From positions 1-54,635 of the forward strand of contig CALKCJ010000046.1 in the NCBI GenBank assembly GCA_938082375.1: a stretch of DNA of 54,635 nucleotides, written 5' to 3'. The translations under genes and the position numbers were made by a program. This document shows, in pieces, positions 1,733-38,609 of the stretch. How positions within the stretch are numbered: position 1 is the first letter of the stretch; every line of letters starts with the position of its first letter. The notes below the pieces were generated by a model, which worked only from the letters and a program-made list of their open reading frames with translations, was not told where the DNA came from and did not search any database. Source of the DNA: an uncultured Thermomicrobiaceae bacterium. GTDB taxonomy: Bacteria; Chloroflexota; Chloroflexia; Thermomicrobiales; Thermomicrobiaceae.

Positions 1733-3100
1733 CTAGTACCCGCCTCTGTCCCTGGCAGCCAGCACCTGCGCGCCGATTCGCCCGAGCATGATGTCCCACC
1801 GCTCTGGCCACTCACCTGGGTGCCACTCGAAGCGTGCGCGCTCGAAGTACTGGACGGTGTACTCCCGGCCGTTGTCCGGGTTGCGCTCGCGGAACTCCTC
1901 GCTGATGGGATAACCGAAAATCGGCACGCCGCCGAACATCTGCCAGTAGCGCAGGAACCCGTGCGCCAGGTTATGTCCGCTCTGCGGGAAGGAGACACAC
2001 TCGACGTGATCAGGGACGTGGCGGCCATCCCAGGTATGCGCGCCCGGACAAGGGGCTGCGGTGCGGAAGGGAGGTTCATTCTCGCGCCCGATCGTCACTT
2101 CACGCCCCAGCAGTCCGAGCAGCACATCCCACCGGTCGGGCGCTGCGCCCGGATGCCACTCGAAGCGAGCCCGTTCGAAGTACTGGACAGTTCTCCCGTT
2201 CTCCACGAACTCCTCGGTCAGTGGATATCCGAAGATCGCCAGCCCGCCGAAGTGCTCCCAGAAGGCACGGAAGCCCGCGCACACGTTGTGGCCGGTCTCC
2301 GGGAAATAGAGGCAGCCCGGTTTCGGCTGCGCCGGTGCCGGCGCTGGAGCCGGCATACCTGGGGGCATGCAGTCGACCGTCGGCCCGCCCGGCACCGTCT
2401 CGATGACACCGGCTGTCCGGATCCTGCCTGGCCCCGGATAGGTGACGGCGGGACCGTCACCACCGATATAGCCCAGGTGCTGAAGCATTTCAGCCGCCTC
2501 ACCGACGCTGCGGAACAGCGCCTTCTCGAAGGCGACGTCGTTCGCGGGGCGCGTTCCGAGCGCGTAGTTGGCCAGTACCCGATGTTCGGCTTCAGTACCG
2601 GCGATCTGGAACGCCACCTTGACTAGCTCCGGCTGCTTGAGCTCGGCGAAACGCCGGGCTGCAGCGATGTAGGCCGCAATGAAGGCGCCCTCGAGCGCCA
2701 CAATCGTGCTGAAGAGCGCGTCGTAGCTCGAGAGGATGCTGGTATCCGGCACGGTGAAGGTCTGGGTCAGAGGCTGCGCGCCGGCCGAGAGAAGGTATTC
2801 CAGGTGGAACTGCTCGGTGGCGCGCGCAGCCTCCAGGATATCGATTACCGGGCCAGGGATCGACGGATCATAGCCGCCATTGCGGGCGCTCTCGATCGCT
2901 CCCCCGAGTAGCGTCACTGCCATCGACTCGGCTGTGGCCGCGATGTTCGCGATCTCGGCCACGGTCTCATCTTGAGCGAGGGCGACCCTCAGCAGGCCGA
3001 GCCGCGAGAGCATCAACCCGGCGCCGAGTGCCCCAACGCCCTTGAAGAGCGTCCGTCGCGACATGTTGGCCGTCGTCAACCGCTCCAGAGCCTTACTCAT
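1733..3100 (-). CDS. Tat-exported ferritin-like protein with two C-terminal FGYP repeats
   Basis: 455 residues. The N-terminus has a twin-arginine signal (SRRTLFKG near residues 14-21, hydrophobic stretch to about 42, ending ALA). Residues about 45-225 form a ferritin-like (Ferritin_2/DUF4439-like) four-helix domain with candidate di-metal ligands: E96 and H99 in EQFH, E137, and E170, E172 and H173 in EAEH. A Pro/Ala-rich linker (about 238-262) leads to two repeats of about 75 residues (about 264-333 and 369-443). Each runs FP-x-(T/S)-GHN, W, GG, IFGYP-(L/I)-(T/S)-EEF, VQYFERARFEWHPG and an LG-rich end. The start has AGGAGGAGA just upstream. The protein is probably folded with its metal in the cytoplasm, exported by Tat and held at the surface by the repeats; the surface role is inference. 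The repeats recall LGFP repeats in pattern but I cannot assign them to a named family. The paralogue at 3203-3856 lies just upstream. Confidence 0.85.
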   Translation of the reverse strand: MSKALERLTTANMSRRTLFKGVGALGAGLMLSRLGLLRVALAQDETVAEIANIAATAESMAVTLLGGAIESARNGGYDPSIPGPVIDILEAARATEQFHLEYLLSAGAQPLTQTFTVPDTSILSSYDALFSTIVALEGAFIAAYIAAARRFAELKQPELVKVAFQIAGTEAEHRVLANYALGTRPANDVAFEKALFRSVGEAAEMLQHLGYIGGDGPAVTYPGPGRIRTAGVIETVPGGPTVDCMPPGMPAPAPAPAQPKPGCLYFPETGHNVCAGFRAFWEHFGGLAIFGYPLTEEFVENGRTVQYFERARFEWHPGAAPDRWDVLLGLLGREVTIGRENEPPFRTAAPCPGAHTWDGRHVPDHVECVSFPQSGHNLAHGFLRYWQMFGGVPIFGYPISEEFRERNPDNGREYTVQYFERARFEWHPGEWPERWDIMLGRIGAQVLAARDRGGY

Positions 3101-3202
3101 CGGTTCTCCTCCTATCTCATCATTCGCTGCCGCAAATGCCGGCCGGACAAGACTGACGAGCGGGGAAGATCTTCCCAGCAGCTTCTGTTGCCACCGGCGT
3201 GT

Positions 3203-3856
3203 CTACGGTCGGAGCTGCGTCACCCCGCTGTCGTTGATCTCCCCTGGGCCTGGATAGGTGATCTCAGGGCCATCGCCACCGATGAAGCCCAGTTGGATCA
3301 AGGTCTCGGCAGCCGCGCCCACGCTGGTAAAGAGCGCGTTCTCGAAAGCCACATTGTTTGGCACGCCGCTGAGCACCCCGGCCGTAATGGCGTAGAAACG
3401 TAGGTGAGCGCGGTGCTCGGCCTCGACACCGCCGATCTGAAGAGCCAGCTTCACCAGGTCGAGTTGGCCGAGGATGGCAAACTCCTGTGCCGCAGCGAGA
3501 TAGGCCGCGATAAACGCCTCTTCGAGGTTGATCGCGGTCGTAAGCAGCACTCCGGTATCGGTCACGATCCGTGGATCCGGGATGGTGAAGGTCAGCGTCA
3601 AGGGCTTGGCGCCGGCACCGACCAGGACCTCGTAGTGGGCCTGCTCCGATGCGCGCGTAGCCTTCAGGAACTGGATCTGCTCGTCGTTCAGCGCGAGCTG
3701 GCCATCGAGCGCGCTCTGGATCGCGCCGCCGATAGCAGTGACCGCGAGCGCTTCAGCCGTCGCCGCGATGTCGATGATCTGCTGAACTGTCTCGCATTGT
3801 GCCGCCGCCTGGGCCAGCAAGCTCATTCGGCCCTGTATCGCGTTCAACTCGGCCAT
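3203..3856 (-). CDS. Ferritin-like domain protein without signal peptide
   Basis: 217 residues, a paralogue of the downstream Tat-exported ferritin-like protein. Both share IAATAE, the E-x-x-H pairs, and the ending GFIGGDGPEITYPGPG-type motif. Candidate metal ligands are E71 and H74 (EQAH), E112 or E113, and E145, E147 and H148 (EAEH). There is no signal sequence, no C-terminal repeats and no linker, so this copy should remain in the cytoplasm. The start at 3856 is supported by GGAGAGGAG just upstream; the frame extends further back without support. It lies about 100 bases ahead of the exported paralogue on the same strand, so the two are likely co-transcribed. They diverge from an ECF sigma factor operon across about 310 bases. 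Iron storage, redox protection or another di-metal function is possible. Confidence 0.82.
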   Translation of the reverse strand: MAELNAIQGRMSLLAQAAAQCETVQQIIDIAATAEALAVTAIGGAIQSALDGQLALNDEQIQFLKATRASEQAHYEVLVGAGAKPLTLTFTIPDPRIVTDTGVLLTTAINLEEAFIAAYLAAAQEFAILGQLDLVKLALQIGGVEAEHRAHLRFYAITAGVLSGVPNNVAFENALFTSVGAAAETLIQLGFIGGDGPEITYPGPGEINDSGVTQLRP

Positions 3857-33390: not shown

Positions 33391-33618
33391 CGCGGCGTCC
33401 CCCTCGAGGTGCTGCTCTTCGCGCAGGACAGTAAAGCTTCAGAGAATCGCCTAATAATTCCTCCCATTCAACGGAACGAGAATCCAACCCCGCCGGTTGC
33501 GCGCTCCCGCTTACTCGGTTTACGGACGAACCGGACTGCGTGATAATAGCCAGAAAGTCCTGCTCGACCTCTAACCTGTCAGCTGCACGAGTATCATCCA
33601 TCCAGGGGGACAAACCTG

Positions 33619-34266
33619 GTGGGCGAATACGTCGAACGACCAGACGATGCTTTGGTGCACGCGGTACGCTCCGGCGAAGTGACCGCGTTCAACGTGCTGG
33701 TCGAGCGCTACCAGCGCACCGTCTATACCGTCGCTCTCCGTTTGCTCCGCGACCGGTTCCTGGCTGAGGATATCACACAGGAAGCGTTTCTGCGTGCCTA
33801 CACCGCGCTCGACAGCTACCGGGGCGGCAGCTTCCGCGCTTGGCTCCTGCGCATCGCCCACAACCGCGCGCTCGACACACTCCGCTCGCTCCAGCGCCGG
33901 CCGGCGTCGCCCCTCGAGCTCGCCGGCACCGACGCCCACGCGGAGTGGTCGGGCGTGCCCGCGCCTGTGAGTCCAGTGGAGCACGCCGCCCGCATTGAGC
34001 TTCGGCGACGGATCGAAGCCGCCCTGGCCACTCTCCCGGAGGATCAGCGTGCCGCGGTGATCCTCTTCGACATCGAAGGGTTGTCCTATGAGGAAATCGC
34101 CACCGTCACCGGGGTGTCGCTCGGCACGGTCAAGTCGCGCCTGAGCCGCGGGCGCGCCCGCCTCCGCGCGATGCTGGCTGCCGACGAGACCTCGCGGGAA
34201 CTCCTGGAAGGTTTCCTGCGTCAAGCTAATGACGGGCCAAGTGAGCGCTCGTCCGGATCCGAGTAG
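33619..34266 (+). CDS. ECF-type RNA polymerase sigma factor
   Basis: 215 residues. Region 2 has FNVLVERYQRTVYTVALRLLRDRFLAEDITQEAFLRAY and FRAWLLRIAHNRALDTLR; region 4 has LPEDQRAAVILFDIEGLSYEEIATVTGVSLGTVKSRLSRGRARLRAML. The linker between them (about 100-130) is longer than in the first sigma factor in this window. It is followed 39 bases later by a gene for a zinc-type anti-sigma factor, then a SIMPL protein. GTG 33619 has an AGGGGGAC site upstream. The pair likely responds to an envelope or redox signal; the actual signal is unknown. The sequence is clearly distinct from the SigK-like one at 4166. Confidence 0.93.
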   Translation: MGEYVERPDDALVHAVRSGEVTAFNVLVERYQRTVYTVALRLLRDRFLAEDITQEAFLRAYTALDSYRGGSFRAWLLRIAHNRALDTLRSLQRRPASPLELAGTDAHAEWSGVPAPVSPVEHAARIELRRRIEAALATLPEDQRAAVILFDIEGLSYEEIATVTGVSLGTVKSRLSRGRARLRAMLAADETSRELLEGFLRQANDGPSERSSGSE

Positions 34267-34305: not shown

Positions 34306-35022
34306 ATGCGGCTTACAGCGGACGGCCACCCGAGCGACGAACTGCTCTCGGCCTATCTGGCCGAGGCCATCGACGACCCGGCGGTAGAGGCCGCCGTATC
34401 GGCGCACCTAGCCGCCTGCGCAGCCTGCCGGGAGCAAGTCGCGCAGTTACAGATCATCACTGCGCTGCTGGCCGAACTGCCTGCCCCCAGCCTGCCACGC
34501 TCGTTCGCGCTCACGCGAGAGGAGCTGGAGCGGCTGCGGCCTCGGCCGTGGTACCTGCGGTACCAGCCAGTGTTTCGCTGGGCCTCTGCTGTCGCTACGG
34601 TGCTGCTGGTCGCCCTCCTCGGCCTCGACCTGTTGACCGCTGGACCGGCAGCCCGCGAGGGTTCAGGCCCGGCGGTCAATCGCCAGGCTCTACCGGAGCC
34701 AACGGCCGCCACGCCGGTGGCAGCCCTAAGCGCCCCGACCGAGCCGATAGCCGGAGCTGGGGGGCCCGAGGGATTACCTCGGGAACTCCTGCCGGCAGGA
34801 AAGGAGGTGCCTACAGAGTCGAGCGGGGTGATGGCGGCGCCTGCGGAGCCGACGATGTCGACCCCAGCACCAAGCCCCACACCCAGTCCCGAGCTGGGCA
34901 CAGCGATGCCGTCCCCTCTGCGCCTGGCGGCAGCGGTAGTCAGCATGGTGCTTGCGATGACGCTGGTGCTCGGCTTCCTACTGCCACGCCTCGCGAAGCG
35001 ACGCGTTTCAAGACTGCCTTGA
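34306..35022 (+). CDS. Zinc-type anti-sigma factor with two membrane segments
   Basis: 238 residues. A ZAS motif H34-x3-C38-x2-C41 (HLAACAAC) marks the sigma-binding domain. Membrane segments lie at about 91-110 (RWASAVATVLLVALLGLDLL) and 206-227 (LRLAAAVVSMVLAMTLVLGFLL), with a Pro/Thr/Ala-rich linker of about 95 residues between and a KRRVSR end. If the zinc domain is inside, the linker is outside and the end returns to the cytoplasm. No folded sensor domain is visible outside. It is expected to hold the sigma factor encoded just upstream. The GGCGACGAGGGGC site precedes ATG 34306. Confidence 0.87.
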   Translation: MRLTADGHPSDELLSAYLAEAIDDPAVEAAVSAHLAACAACREQVAQLQIITALLAELPAPSLPRSFALTREELERLRPRPWYLRYQPVFRWASAVATVLLVALLGLDLLTAGPAAREGSGPAVNRQALPEPTAATPVAALSAPTEPIAGAGGPEGLPRELLPAGKEVPTESSGVMAAPAEPTMSTPAPSPTPSPELGTAMPSPLRLAAAVVSMVLAMTLVLGFLLPRLAKRRVSRLP

Positions 35023-35080: not shown

Positions 35081-35821
35081 ATGCGTGGTCTACAGCGTCT
35101 GGTTCTCGCATCCGTGTTCATCGCCATGCTGGCCCTCGCCGGTGCGATGGTCGCCGTCTTCGGCGGGGCAGGCGGAACCCCAAGTCCAGGAGCCGCTGCG
35201 GCCGAACCTTCTGCCAACCGGGTCATTAGCGTCAGCGGCGAGGGGCACGTCTTCATCAGACCAGATCTTGCCAGTGTGACGCTGGGTGTCGAGCTCAGCA
35301 AGCCAGACATCACGACCGCTCAGCAGGAGGCGAGCCAACGGATGGCGGCCGTGCTGGCCGCGTTGAAGGCGCGTGGAATCCCGGAAGAGAAGGTCAAGAC
35401 CGTCAGCTACAGCATCTGGGTGGAGCGCAACTACGAGCAGCCTGACCAGCCCATCACCGGCTATCGAGTCTTCCACCTGGTGGAAGCGCAGGTTCAGCCG
35501 GTGGATCGGGTCGGGGAGATCATCGAAGCCGCGGTAGCGGCCGGAGCTAACTCGATCTCTGGTATCAGCTTCACGGTGGCCGATCCGAGCACCGTCATCC
35601 GGCAGGCCCGCGAGCTGGCGATGCGTGATGCGCGGGATAGGGCCAGCCACCTCGCGCAGCTCGCGGGGGTCACCCTGGGAGCACCGATCCGTATCACCGA
35701 GGGTGGCGCGTTCCCGCCGCCAGTGCCGGTCGAGGCCCGAGCTGGTGCTGGCGCCGGGCCGGTGCCGCCGGGCGAGACGCTGGTCAGCGTCGTCGTCACG
35801 ATCGATTACGCGATCCAGTGA
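35081..35821 (+). CDS. Exported SIMPL-domain (DUF541) protein
   Basis: 246 residues. The N-terminal segment (about 6-28, LVLASVFIAMLALAGAMVAVFGG) is a signal peptide or anchor. The SIMPL domain follows with RVISVSGEGHVFIRPDLASVTLGVE at its start, VKTVSYSIWVERNY, ITGYRVFHLVEAQV and AAVAAGANSISGISF, ending in VSVVVTIDYAIQ. Proteins of this family lie outside the cytoplasmic membrane and have been linked to oxidative stress and outer structures, with no enzymatic role shown. The gene is third in the ECF sigma/anti-sigma unit and may be a target of it. GAGGAGAGG precedes the ATG. It ends at a palindrome facing the HtrA gene. Confidence 0.92.
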   Translation: MRGLQRLVLASVFIAMLALAGAMVAVFGGAGGTPSPGAAAAEPSANRVISVSGEGHVFIRPDLASVTLGVELSKPDITTAQQEASQRMAAVLAALKARGIPEEKVKTVSYSIWVERNYEQPDQPITGYRVFHLVEAQVQPVDRVGEIIEAAVAAGANSISGISFTVADPSTVIRQARELAMRDARDRASHLAQLAGVTLGAPIRITEGGAFPPPVPVEARAGAGAGPVPPGETLVSVVVTIDYAIQ

Positions 35822-37106: not shown

Positions 37107-37200
37107 CGTCACCCCATCCTGTCATGCATCTGGCCGCAACGCTGCTGCACCGGCGGCTGGCGCAACGTAAGCTTGCCCCAGAAGGAGGCCTGGCGGCACT

Positions 37201-38130
37201 GTGGCCCTGGCGACACGCTGGCGAACGACGCTCCTTGCCCTGGCGCTGGCCCTGGCTGGTTGCGGGGCGCCCGCCCCGGCCTCCGGCAGCGTGGCTCCTC
37301 CGGAGGCCTACCCGGGCGGCGAGCTGCTGGTCTCGGTCAAGTGGCTGTCGCAGCACCTCGACGACCCGAGCCTGCGCCTGCTCGATGCCAGCCCGCTCCA
37401 CGAGTACCAGGCCGGGCACATCCCCGGCGCGACTCACGTCTGGTGGCAGGACACGATCGAGGTGCACAACGAGACCTATGGGATGCTCGTCGGCGAGCCT
37501 GGTCGGGCTGAGTTTATCCGCCGGGCGGGGATCACGCCGCAGAGCCGGGTCGTAGTCTACGACGGCGCCGGCAACCGCTACGCTGCCAGGGTCGTCTGGA
37601 CGCTGCACGCGCTCGGCTTTCGGCAGGTACAGGTGCTCCAGGGTGGCCGACAGGCCTGGCAGGCCGCCGGCCTACCGCTGACCCGCCAGCTCCCGCCAGC
37701 GCCAGCTCCCGGCACGCTGGCACAGCAGCTCGACTACAGCGTCTTGATCGGTGTCGACGACGTGCTGGCCTCGCTCGGCGACCCGGCCGTCGTGATCGTC
37801 GATAACCGCACCCCGCAGGAGCAGCGAGCGACCTGGAACGGCCGCCTGCGCCCGGGCAAGATTCCGGGGGCGGCGATCATTCCCTGGACGGCCCTGACCG
37901 AGCGCGGCCCCGTGCCGGCCTATCGCGACCCAGCGACGCTCAGCGAGCTGTTCGCGAGCCAGGGCGTGACGCCGGACAAGACTGTCATCGTCTACGGCCT
38001 TCATGGCCCGGGAGCTGCGCAGACCTATCTGGCGCTCAAGCTGCTCGGCTATCCTTCAGTGCGGGTGTACGACGGCTCGTGGGCCGAGTGGGGCGCCCGA
38101 GCCGATCTGCCGCTGGAGGCACTACCGTGA
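37201..38130 (+). CDS. Rhodanese-fold lipoprotein lacking catalytic cysteines
   Basis: 309 residues. A lipoprotein signal ends in LAGC with the lipid Cys at about residue 21. Two rhodanese (sulfurtransferase) domains follow, about 40-160 and 175-305. The catalytic loops that normally read C-R-x-G-x-R are here VVYDGAGNRYA in the first domain and VIVYGLHGPGAAQT in the second, so neither has the Cys. The only Cys in the whole protein is the lipobox. The fold-level motifs are kept: HIPGATH, GRQAW, GKIPGA and YDGSWAEWG. It therefore cannot act by the usual persulfide mechanism and may bind a ligand or partner at the membrane surface. It overlaps the next gene by 4 bases. GTG 37201 is the most likely start (GGAGG 12 bases upstream). 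Confidence 0.88.
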   Translation: MALATRWRTTLLALALALAGCGAPAPASGSVAPPEAYPGGELLVSVKWLSQHLDDPSLRLLDASPLHEYQAGHIPGATHVWWQDTIEVHNETYGMLVGEPGRAEFIRRAGITPQSRVVVYDGAGNRYAARVVWTLHALGFRQVQVLQGGRQAWQAAGLPLTRQLPPAPAPGTLAQQLDYSVLIGVDDVLASLGDPAVVIVDNRTPQEQRATWNGRLRPGKIPGAAIIPWTALTERGPVPAYRDPATLSELFASQGVTPDKTVIVYGLHGPGAAQTYLALKLLGYPSVRVYDGSWAEWGARADLPLEALP

Positions 38131-38609
38131 GGGAGTATGGATCGATCGGTGGGGACTGCTTGGAGGCGGTGATCGAGGATCCGGCCGGCAGCACGATGCG
38201 ACACACACTCGACCATGCGACCGGCACCTGGACCACCCACCAGCACCCGCAGGCGCGCCGTCCCTGGCCGGCTGCCTATGGACATCTGCCGGGCACATAC
38301 AACCCGACCGATGGCGACGAGCTCGACGTCATCGTCCTGGCCAATGTGCCACTGCGGACCGGGCAACGGGTCCGGGTGAGGCCGATCGGGGTGTTGGTGC
38401 GACCCGACGGCGACCATAAGATCCTGGCAGTCCGCTGCGGCGATCCGCGGTACGGCGCCCTCGTCGATCTCCTCGAGGCGCCAGCGGAAGATTTGCAGGC
38501 GATCGAGGACTGGTTCGCCGAGTGGGACATCGTGCTGGGATGGGAAAACGCGGAGGCAGCCTGGCAAATGATTCGATTCGCGACCGACGCGAGAGACGAG
38601 CCACGATGA
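38127..38609 (+). CDS. Divergent inorganic pyrophosphatase-like protein
   Basis: 160 residues. The family motif DGDELDV (pattern D-x-D-[PE]-x-D) is present in PWPAAYGHLPGTYNPTDGDELDVIVL, and so is a DHKILAV block similar to the second metal motif. By hand comparison with bacterial soluble PPase, several active residues look changed: the K-x-E of the N-terminal strand reads RHT, the substrate Arg reads Gln, one of the later Asp ligands is missing, and the HYK motif near the C-terminus reads WFAEW. It may be a binding or modified enzyme rather than a true PPase. GTG 38127 overlaps the rhodanese stop and has TGGAGG 8 bases ahead. The stop overlaps the galE-like start (ATGA). Confidence 0.8.
   Translation: MREYGSIGGDCLEAVIEDPAGSTMRHTLDHATGTWTTHQHPQARRPWPAAYGHLPGTYNPTDGDELDVIVLANVPLRTGQRVRVRPIGVLVRPDGDHKILAVRCGDPRYGALVDLLEAPAEDLQAIEDWFAEWDIVLGWENAEAAWQMIRFATDARDEPR

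Follow-up and report, generated by a model that had tools for sequence, protein, structure and literature searches.

The window, the whole stretch of 54,635 nucleotides analysed here, encodes a predicted lipoprotein of two rhodanese domains in which the catalytic cysteine of the tandem sulfurtransferases is replaced by glycine. The protein belongs to a single Cys-free clade maintained by purifying selection, and its sequence gives good support for regarding it as a catalytically dead enzyme, probably a former sulfur enzyme that now serves for binding or sensing. The preferred reading is that of a dead, membrane-tethered extracytoplasmic binding subunit that would serve as an accessory of the neighbouring ECF sigma locus, and a probability of slightly under 0.4 is assigned to it. 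A binding part is considered the best reading because the absence of Cys is combined with a rebuilt and conserved cleft motif, an export leader, and a stress regulator as neighbour. The rhodanese fold and non-catalytic rhodanese domains are already known, although the non-catalytic domains listed in the literature search are eukaryotic; in the titles and abstract openings of the open-licence literature, no description of the clade or of its sigma context was found. With a single loss of Cys, continued selection, an export leader, and in most cases an envelope-stress sigma locus next to it, the clade offers a clean, testable case of a bacterial enzyme converted to binding or sensing, and an annotation of its proteins as "sulfurtransferase" would mislead regarding their function.

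Gene, fold, and predicted membrane anchor

37183–37188, + strand: AGGAGG, ribosome-binding-like, 12 nt upstream of the GTG of the pseudo-rhodanese gene
37201–38130, + strand: lipoprotein tandem pseudo-rhodanese, 309 amino acids, GTG start, TGA stop
37234–37263, + strand: hydrophobic core of the signal peptide and lipobox LAGC (residues 18–21) of the pseudo-rhodanese

The AGGAGG before the gene is also present in three congeners, as observed in the upstream alignment. The single Cys of the 309-residue translation is C21 (37261–37263), located in LALALAGC, and is thus the lipobox residue that the initial annotation had taken as lipid-modified. Matches over cut-off to PF01790 (LGT, prolipoprotein transferase) and PF01252 (LspA, signal peptidase II) were obtained in the host genome, which renders the predicted lipidation plausible. 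Among the 34 members of the clade, a lipobox script with a preset hydropathy threshold flagged 10, the window protein not being one of these, and inspection of the N-termini by eye revealed a lipobox-like Cys after a hydrophobic run in 25 members, several of which start with a twin-arginine-like sequence (TRRxFL or SRRALL). In the nine members in which no lipobox-like Cys was seen by eye, L026, L027, L028, L165, and L167 carry a strong hydrophobic segment in its place, and the N-termini of L158, L159, L162, and L163 are ambiguous, being assigned to neither class. Since a lipobox-like Cys or a hydrophobic segment occurs in most members, export seems to have been retained across the clade, though the type of anchor varies.

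Two stretches of the Rhodanese family (PF00581; E 9.8e-37, 125.9 bits against a gathering score of 22.2) were detected in the window protein using Pfam, which together with the fold matches place it in the rhodanese superfamily, and the initial observation of two rhodanese domains behind a lipobox was confirmed. The closest solved structures are those of the tandem sulfurtransferases 1uar (E 5.7e-42), 1urh, and 1e0c. The AlphaFold2 model of the window protein, built from a 28-row alignment, has a mean pLDDT of 90.4 and a pTM of 0.86, and matches 1e0c with a Z of 34.5 and an rmsd of 1.9 over 263 aligned residues and 1uar with a Z of 33.9 and an rmsd of 2.1 over 267 aligned residues; the modelled fold is that of the tandem thiosulfate sulfurtransferases. 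Rhodanese is the only Pfam family over cut-off in the window protein, a MucB/RseB domain being absent, and the NCBIfam equivalog for 3-mercaptopyruvate sulfurtransferase (NF008557) is not reached (142.8 bits, cut-off 250). The nearest named loci, from a Thermomicrobiaceae bacterium (91% identical) and Thermalbibacter longus (85%), place the window close to Thermomicrobiaceae.

The protein resembles the tandem thiosulfate/3-mercaptopyruvate sulfurtransferases (1uar of Thermus, 1e0c of Azotobacter, and SseA, 1urh) in its two domains, 30–35% identity, the same fold, and the motifs VDxR, GHIPGA, and YDGSWAEW-type, whereas the Gly at its catalytic position and the lipobox of its export leader set it apart. 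Two proteins from other Chloroflexota (L182 and L185) likewise combine a lipobox-like leader with a tandem rhodanese, so that in this phylum a leader of this kind can also precede a rhodanese with Cys; however, their loops contain Cys (YCQTGTRATH and YCQTGMRAAN), they fall outside the clade in the tree, and the sigma factor, anti-sigma factor, SIMPL, and HtrA queries remained unmatched in the 16.0 and 9.7 kb around them.

Active-site loops, cleft residues, and origin of the clade

37417–37482, + strand: HIPGA region and clade-specific motif H79-x-W81-W82-Q83-D84...Y93-G94, residues 73–94
37549–37590, + strand: domain 1 loop VVVYDGAGNRYAAR, residues 117–130, Cys-free
37987–38028, + strand: domain 2 active-site loop IVYGLHGPGAAQTY (the loop is also given as VIVYGLHGPGAAQTY), residues 263–276

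Residues were compared between the 34 clade members and 93 other (canonical) tandem rhodaneses, from which L034 was omitted because its open reading frame ends at the catalytic codon, a TGA. Both loops of the window protein lack Cys, as had been noticed from the sequence. In the domain 2 loop, YGLHGPG, the position of the catalytic Cys is occupied by G266, and hence the window protein lacks the residue expected of an active sulfurtransferase. Residue 266 is Gly in 30 clade members, Ala in two, and Ser in two, and Cys in none of the 34, whereas 91 of the 93 canonical relatives carry Cys there (one Asp, one Ser); the absence of Cys at this residue is not a matter of chance. By contrast, residue 121, the domain 1 site, is Asp in 82, Gly in 10, and Ser in one of the 93 canonical proteins, and Cys in none. 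Because the canonical tandem enzymes are Cys-free at this site as well, only the loss in domain 2 is unusual, and an N-terminal loop counted as a second catalytic loss was rejected. The term "double pseudo-rhodanese" accordingly holds for domain 2, with its change of Cys to Gly, but not for domain 1.

Changes extend to the surrounding cleft. Asp63 and His74 of the 3-mercaptopyruvate sulfurtransferase (3MST) triad were mapped onto the clade alignment by spacing. At residues 83, 94, and 268, the window protein has Gln, Gly, and His, respectively, where 63 of the 93 canonical proteins have Asp, 64 have His, and 66 have Ser, these counts representing a mercaptopyruvate-type majority among them; the Ser-His-Asp triad of 3MST, as mapped by alignment spacing and not by structure, is not found in the window protein. 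In human 3MST, this triad is described as arranged around Cys248, and Ser250 touches an inhibitor. Within the clade, residue 268 is His in 17 members, Phe in 10, and others in the rest, whereas the motif at residues 79–94 is nearly constant: H79 in 34 of 34, W81 in 30, W82 in 33, Q83 in 31, D84 in 33, Y93 in 32, and G94 in 33. In the comparison of 34 with 93 proteins, the H-x-WWQD motif is private to the Cys-free clade, and HxWWQD...YG stands where mercaptopyruvate-type relatives carry FxDxD...PH.

A search for homologues with the same Cys-free loops, as had been proposed, yielded at least 34 members among the matches listed, one per genome, in 34 of the 61 genomes searched of the order to which the host belongs; more divergent or weaker members could be missed in this count, and two contig-edge fragments (G013 and G032) are excluded from it. 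The Cys-free set is monophyletic in maximum-likelihood trees of 89 proteins (including 55 of the 93 canonical rows) and 62 proteins (21 of the 34 members and 41 others), at 100/100 and in 100% of 200 bootstrap trees. These trees point to a single loss of the catalytic Cys, in an ancestor that already belonged to the order. The clade is under purifying selection, with low dN/dS values of 0.069–0.103 (YN00) and 0.147–0.204 (NG86) in the 7 of 15 clade pairs that were computable, the rest being probably saturated. It had been reasoned that homologues nearly always carrying Cys would point to a sequencing error or recent loss; this pattern exists outside the clade (91 of 93) but not inside it (0 of 34). 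With no Cys in any member, low dN/dS, and no internal stop in the matches of all 34 members, a sequencing error or a recent loss in a decaying gene can be set aside with near certainty, and the original view that the gene is not decaying proved sound.

All 115 further rhodanese rows of the order in the match list were read, and they comprise 109 with Cys, five with an in-frame TGA, and one with Ser at the catalytic position, with neither Gly nor Ala among them. The host genome itself retains two Cys-bearing tandem paralogues, L169 (YCRIGERSS) and L170 (YCQGGVRAA). Among 400 genomes drawn from across the phylum, with scoring of the five best candidates in each, no further clade member was found among the matches listed; the 19 new loci read consist of 17 with Cys (L182 and L185 among them), one with Asp (L191, YDGSG), and one with TGA (L187). 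Asp at the catalytic Cys (YDGSGVGAAK) was observed in L047 (match 2917–3738) and L191 of other Chloroflexota, which group together near the mercaptopyruvate type, indicative of a second, separate Cys loss. Ser occupies the catalytic position in L044 (YSRIGERAS) and L315 (YSGNGERSA).

Gene neighbourhood and proposed role

33619–34266, + strand: ECF-type sigma factor (Sigma70_r2, Sigma70_r4_2)
34306–35022, + strand: probable anti-sigma factor (zf-HC2 region, 20.7 bits, just below the cut-off of 22.2)
35081–35821, + strand: SIMPL (DUF541) protein with an N-terminal hydrophobic segment
35898–37112, − strand: HtrA-like protease (Trypsin_2 and PDZ) with an N-terminal hydrophobic segment, divergent from the pseudo-rhodanese
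38127–38609, + strand: inorganic pyrophosphatase-like protein, its GTG start overlapping the stop of the pseudo-rhodanese (GTGA)

In the window, the genes for the ECF sigma factor, anti-sigma factor, SIMPL, HtrA (on the opposite strand), pseudo-rhodanese, and pyrophosphatase follow one another in this order. A SIMPL gene is located at most 2.71 kb from the pseudo-rhodanese in 24 of the 34 genomes, against approximately 0.16 expected by chance, and is absent within 5 kb in the other 10, some of whose contigs are short. Of the order's 115 remaining rhodanese rows in the match list, SIMPL was found within 5 kb of one, a gene with a Cys loop on contig 83 of G033, where the SIMPL match is weak and the sigma factor was unmatched in the vicinity. 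Three further rows, in genus g2, stand 5.2–5.5 kb from SIMPL because they are located just past the pseudo-rhodanese; in this genus (L112, L113, and L114), a Cys-bearing tandem rhodanese (YCQGAVRAA) was observed approximately 2.6 kb downstream of the pseudo-rhodanese. Using tblastn, the sigma factor was matched near the pseudo-rhodanese in 17 of 34 genomes, with one weaker match (G006), and HtrA also in 17 of 34, with one weak match (G007), the window being included in both counts and G002, G003, G011, G015, G016, and G018 being examined with 1.5 kb of flank or less. One or another of the ECF sigma, anti-sigma, SIMPL, or HtrA genes was matched near the gene across families f1, f2, and f3, and the locus queries were unmatched beside 11 canonical control rhodanese loci (4.4–15 kb each) and five control loci of the phylum. 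The neighbourhood is conserved but not obligatory: no gene of the locus was matched in the 6.7, 16, and 16 kb examined in G023, G024, and G027, respectively, and in G024 and G025 the sigma/anti-sigma/SIMPL locus is located on a different contig from the pseudo-rhodanese. A tandem pair of SIMPL genes was observed in G001 (L111, 10458–11901) and also in G003. The pyrophosphatase gene adjoins the pseudo-rhodanese in 16 of 17 members of family f1 and is found beside the G013 fragment, and it was unmatched beside the pseudo-rhodanese in the loci examined of other families.

The reverse relation was examined at 16 SIMPL loci selected from genomes of the order with a good SIMPL match and no listed pseudo-rhodanese. 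A sigma factor was found within 5 kb at 14 of them and a pseudo-rhodanese in the stretch fetched at none, and the sigma/SIMPL pair is thus conserved independently of the pseudo-rhodanese (L206–L208, L210–L214, and L216–L221, each in a genome of its own). As this locus exists without the gene, the pseudo-rhodanese is an accessory at most and not a core component.

Sensing or binding of a small molecule or protein, as suggested in the initial annotation, is compatible with these sequence features, and the neighbourhood would give this idea a direction, toward the ECF sigma/anti-sigma/SIMPL/HtrA locus; overall, that interpretation is partly supported. In the preferred reading, a tandem sulfurtransferase would have been exported and lipid-tethered on the outer face of the membrane, or held by a transmembrane segment in some relatives, and after the single loss of the catalytic Cys the protein would have been retained as a dead binding protein without turnover. 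The remodelled cleft, formed by WWQD...YG and the GLHG loop, may capture a peptide or a small ligand of the stressed envelope, and whether the cleft is occupied or empty may affect how readily the anti-sigma factor or the protease reaches its partner. The anti-sigma candidate has two hydrophobic segments, near residues 89–113 and 203–230, and because membrane-type hydrophobic segments occur in the anti-sigma factor, SIMPL, and HtrA alike, each of them could meet a surface lipoprotein; the link to the sigma factor is suggested by gene context. A more specific proposal, considered unlikely, is that a single recruitment made the tandem rhodanese fold the extracytoplasmic sensor for the ECF sigma factor, with the dead inter-domain cleft reading a ligand or exposed peptide and controlling anti-sigma release or HtrA proteolysis. 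If true, this would represent a new class of sensor in the signalling of sigma factors, and the non-catalytic rhodanese domains in chloroplasts and endosomes would have a bacterial counterpart.

Known systems provide partial parallels. RseB is an extracytoplasmic modulator of an anti-sigma factor; by comparison, the modulator proposed here from gene context would have a rhodanese fold. In Mycobacterium tuberculosis, sigE and rseA-htrA-tatB are reported to constitute an ECF sigma/anti-sigma pair with HtrA nearby, an arrangement to which that of the window is similar. TROL is described as a thylakoid membrane protein with a presumed signalling function, whose inactive rhodanese domain is located in the lumen and hence, as predicted for the window protein, across the membrane; however, it is a plant protein that docks FNR and is unrelated to sigma factors. 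The rhodanese domain of TBC1D23 has been reported to lack sulfurtransferase and phosphatase activity and to form part of a binding platform, but the protein is eukaryotic and its Cys is retained. The rhodanese domain of USP8, which has been termed non-catalytic, is similar in this respect and likewise eukaryotic.

The gene context could also reflect a role in envelope quality control with no sigma signalling, the protein acting on the divergent HtrA as adaptor or regulator, or else pairing with SIMPL. HtrA is nearby in the 17 genomes mentioned, with the weak match in G007, and in G006, G010, G015, G025, G030, and G059 it is near while SIMPL is not within 5 kb, the contigs of G015 and G059 being just 3.7 and 4.4 kb long. 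However, SIMPL is close and HtrA is unmatched in the stretch examined in 13 genomes (G005, G008, G011, G014, G016, G018, G022, G031, G034, G050, G053, G055, and G056; judged on approximately 1.5 kb of flank in G011, G016, and G018), so that HtrA is not a constant partner, and this role appears doubtful. Improbable to a similar degree is a lipoprotein that binds a small molecule, such as a quinone, a sulfur compound, or an anion, in a role unrelated to the neighbouring regulators: the conserved cleft motif unlike that of canonical enzymes would suit it, and the altered loop of the inactive TROL rhodanese is reported as a possible site for plastoquinone, but the linkage to SIMPL (24 of 34 genomes, compared with 1 of the remaining 115 rhodanese rows in the list) would be left unexplained.

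The conserved context may alternatively be inherited gene order only, with the protein acting otherwise at the envelope. Since all members come from one order, their shared synteny is non-independent evidence, and sigma, SIMPL, and HtrA genes occur without the pseudo-rhodanese; nevertheless, the link holds between approximately 40% identical proteins of families f1, f2, and f3, whereas GalE and SMC, also neighbours in the window, were matched beside the pseudo-rhodanese in f1 loci only, and this explanation appears rather unlikely. Persistence as an enzyme, through another nucleophile or new chemistry on the conserved H79, D84, and Y93, is very improbable given that the domain 2 loop contains no constant nucleophile at residues 266 and 268.

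The sequences preceding the pseudo-rhodanese gene were aligned for four congeners, and those preceding the sigma gene for two. The conserved upstream block CGTAAGCTTGCC has five matches in the window at up to two mismatches, against 3.68 expected, and a common ECF-type promoter for the sigma factor, HtrA, and pseudo-rhodanese was rejected because this recurrence is at chance level. Within 33500–33620 of the window, the blocks AGTCCTGCTCGA and GTATCATCCAT before the sigma gene are common to G001 and may be part of the sigma promoter region.

In-frame TGA codons in related rhodaneses

In five tandem rhodaneses of family f2 of the order (L238, L271, L277, L290, and L293) and, outside the order, in L034 (Dehalococcoidia UBA1151) and L187 (G209), an in-frame TGA occupies precisely the codon of the catalytic Cys. 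The reading frame continues past the TGA with QGGIRAAHG or similar, as in VVPY*QGGIRAAHG. A SelB match over cut-off was obtained in all six G genomes with TGA rhodaneses, and tRNA-Sec was over cut-off in four of the six, G021 and G028 being below. These proteins are probably selenocysteine enzymes, and accounting for them in this way, the tandem rhodaneses of the order would carry Cys, probably selenocysteine, or Gly at one and the same site. SelB and tRNA-Sec were both matched in the window's own genome.
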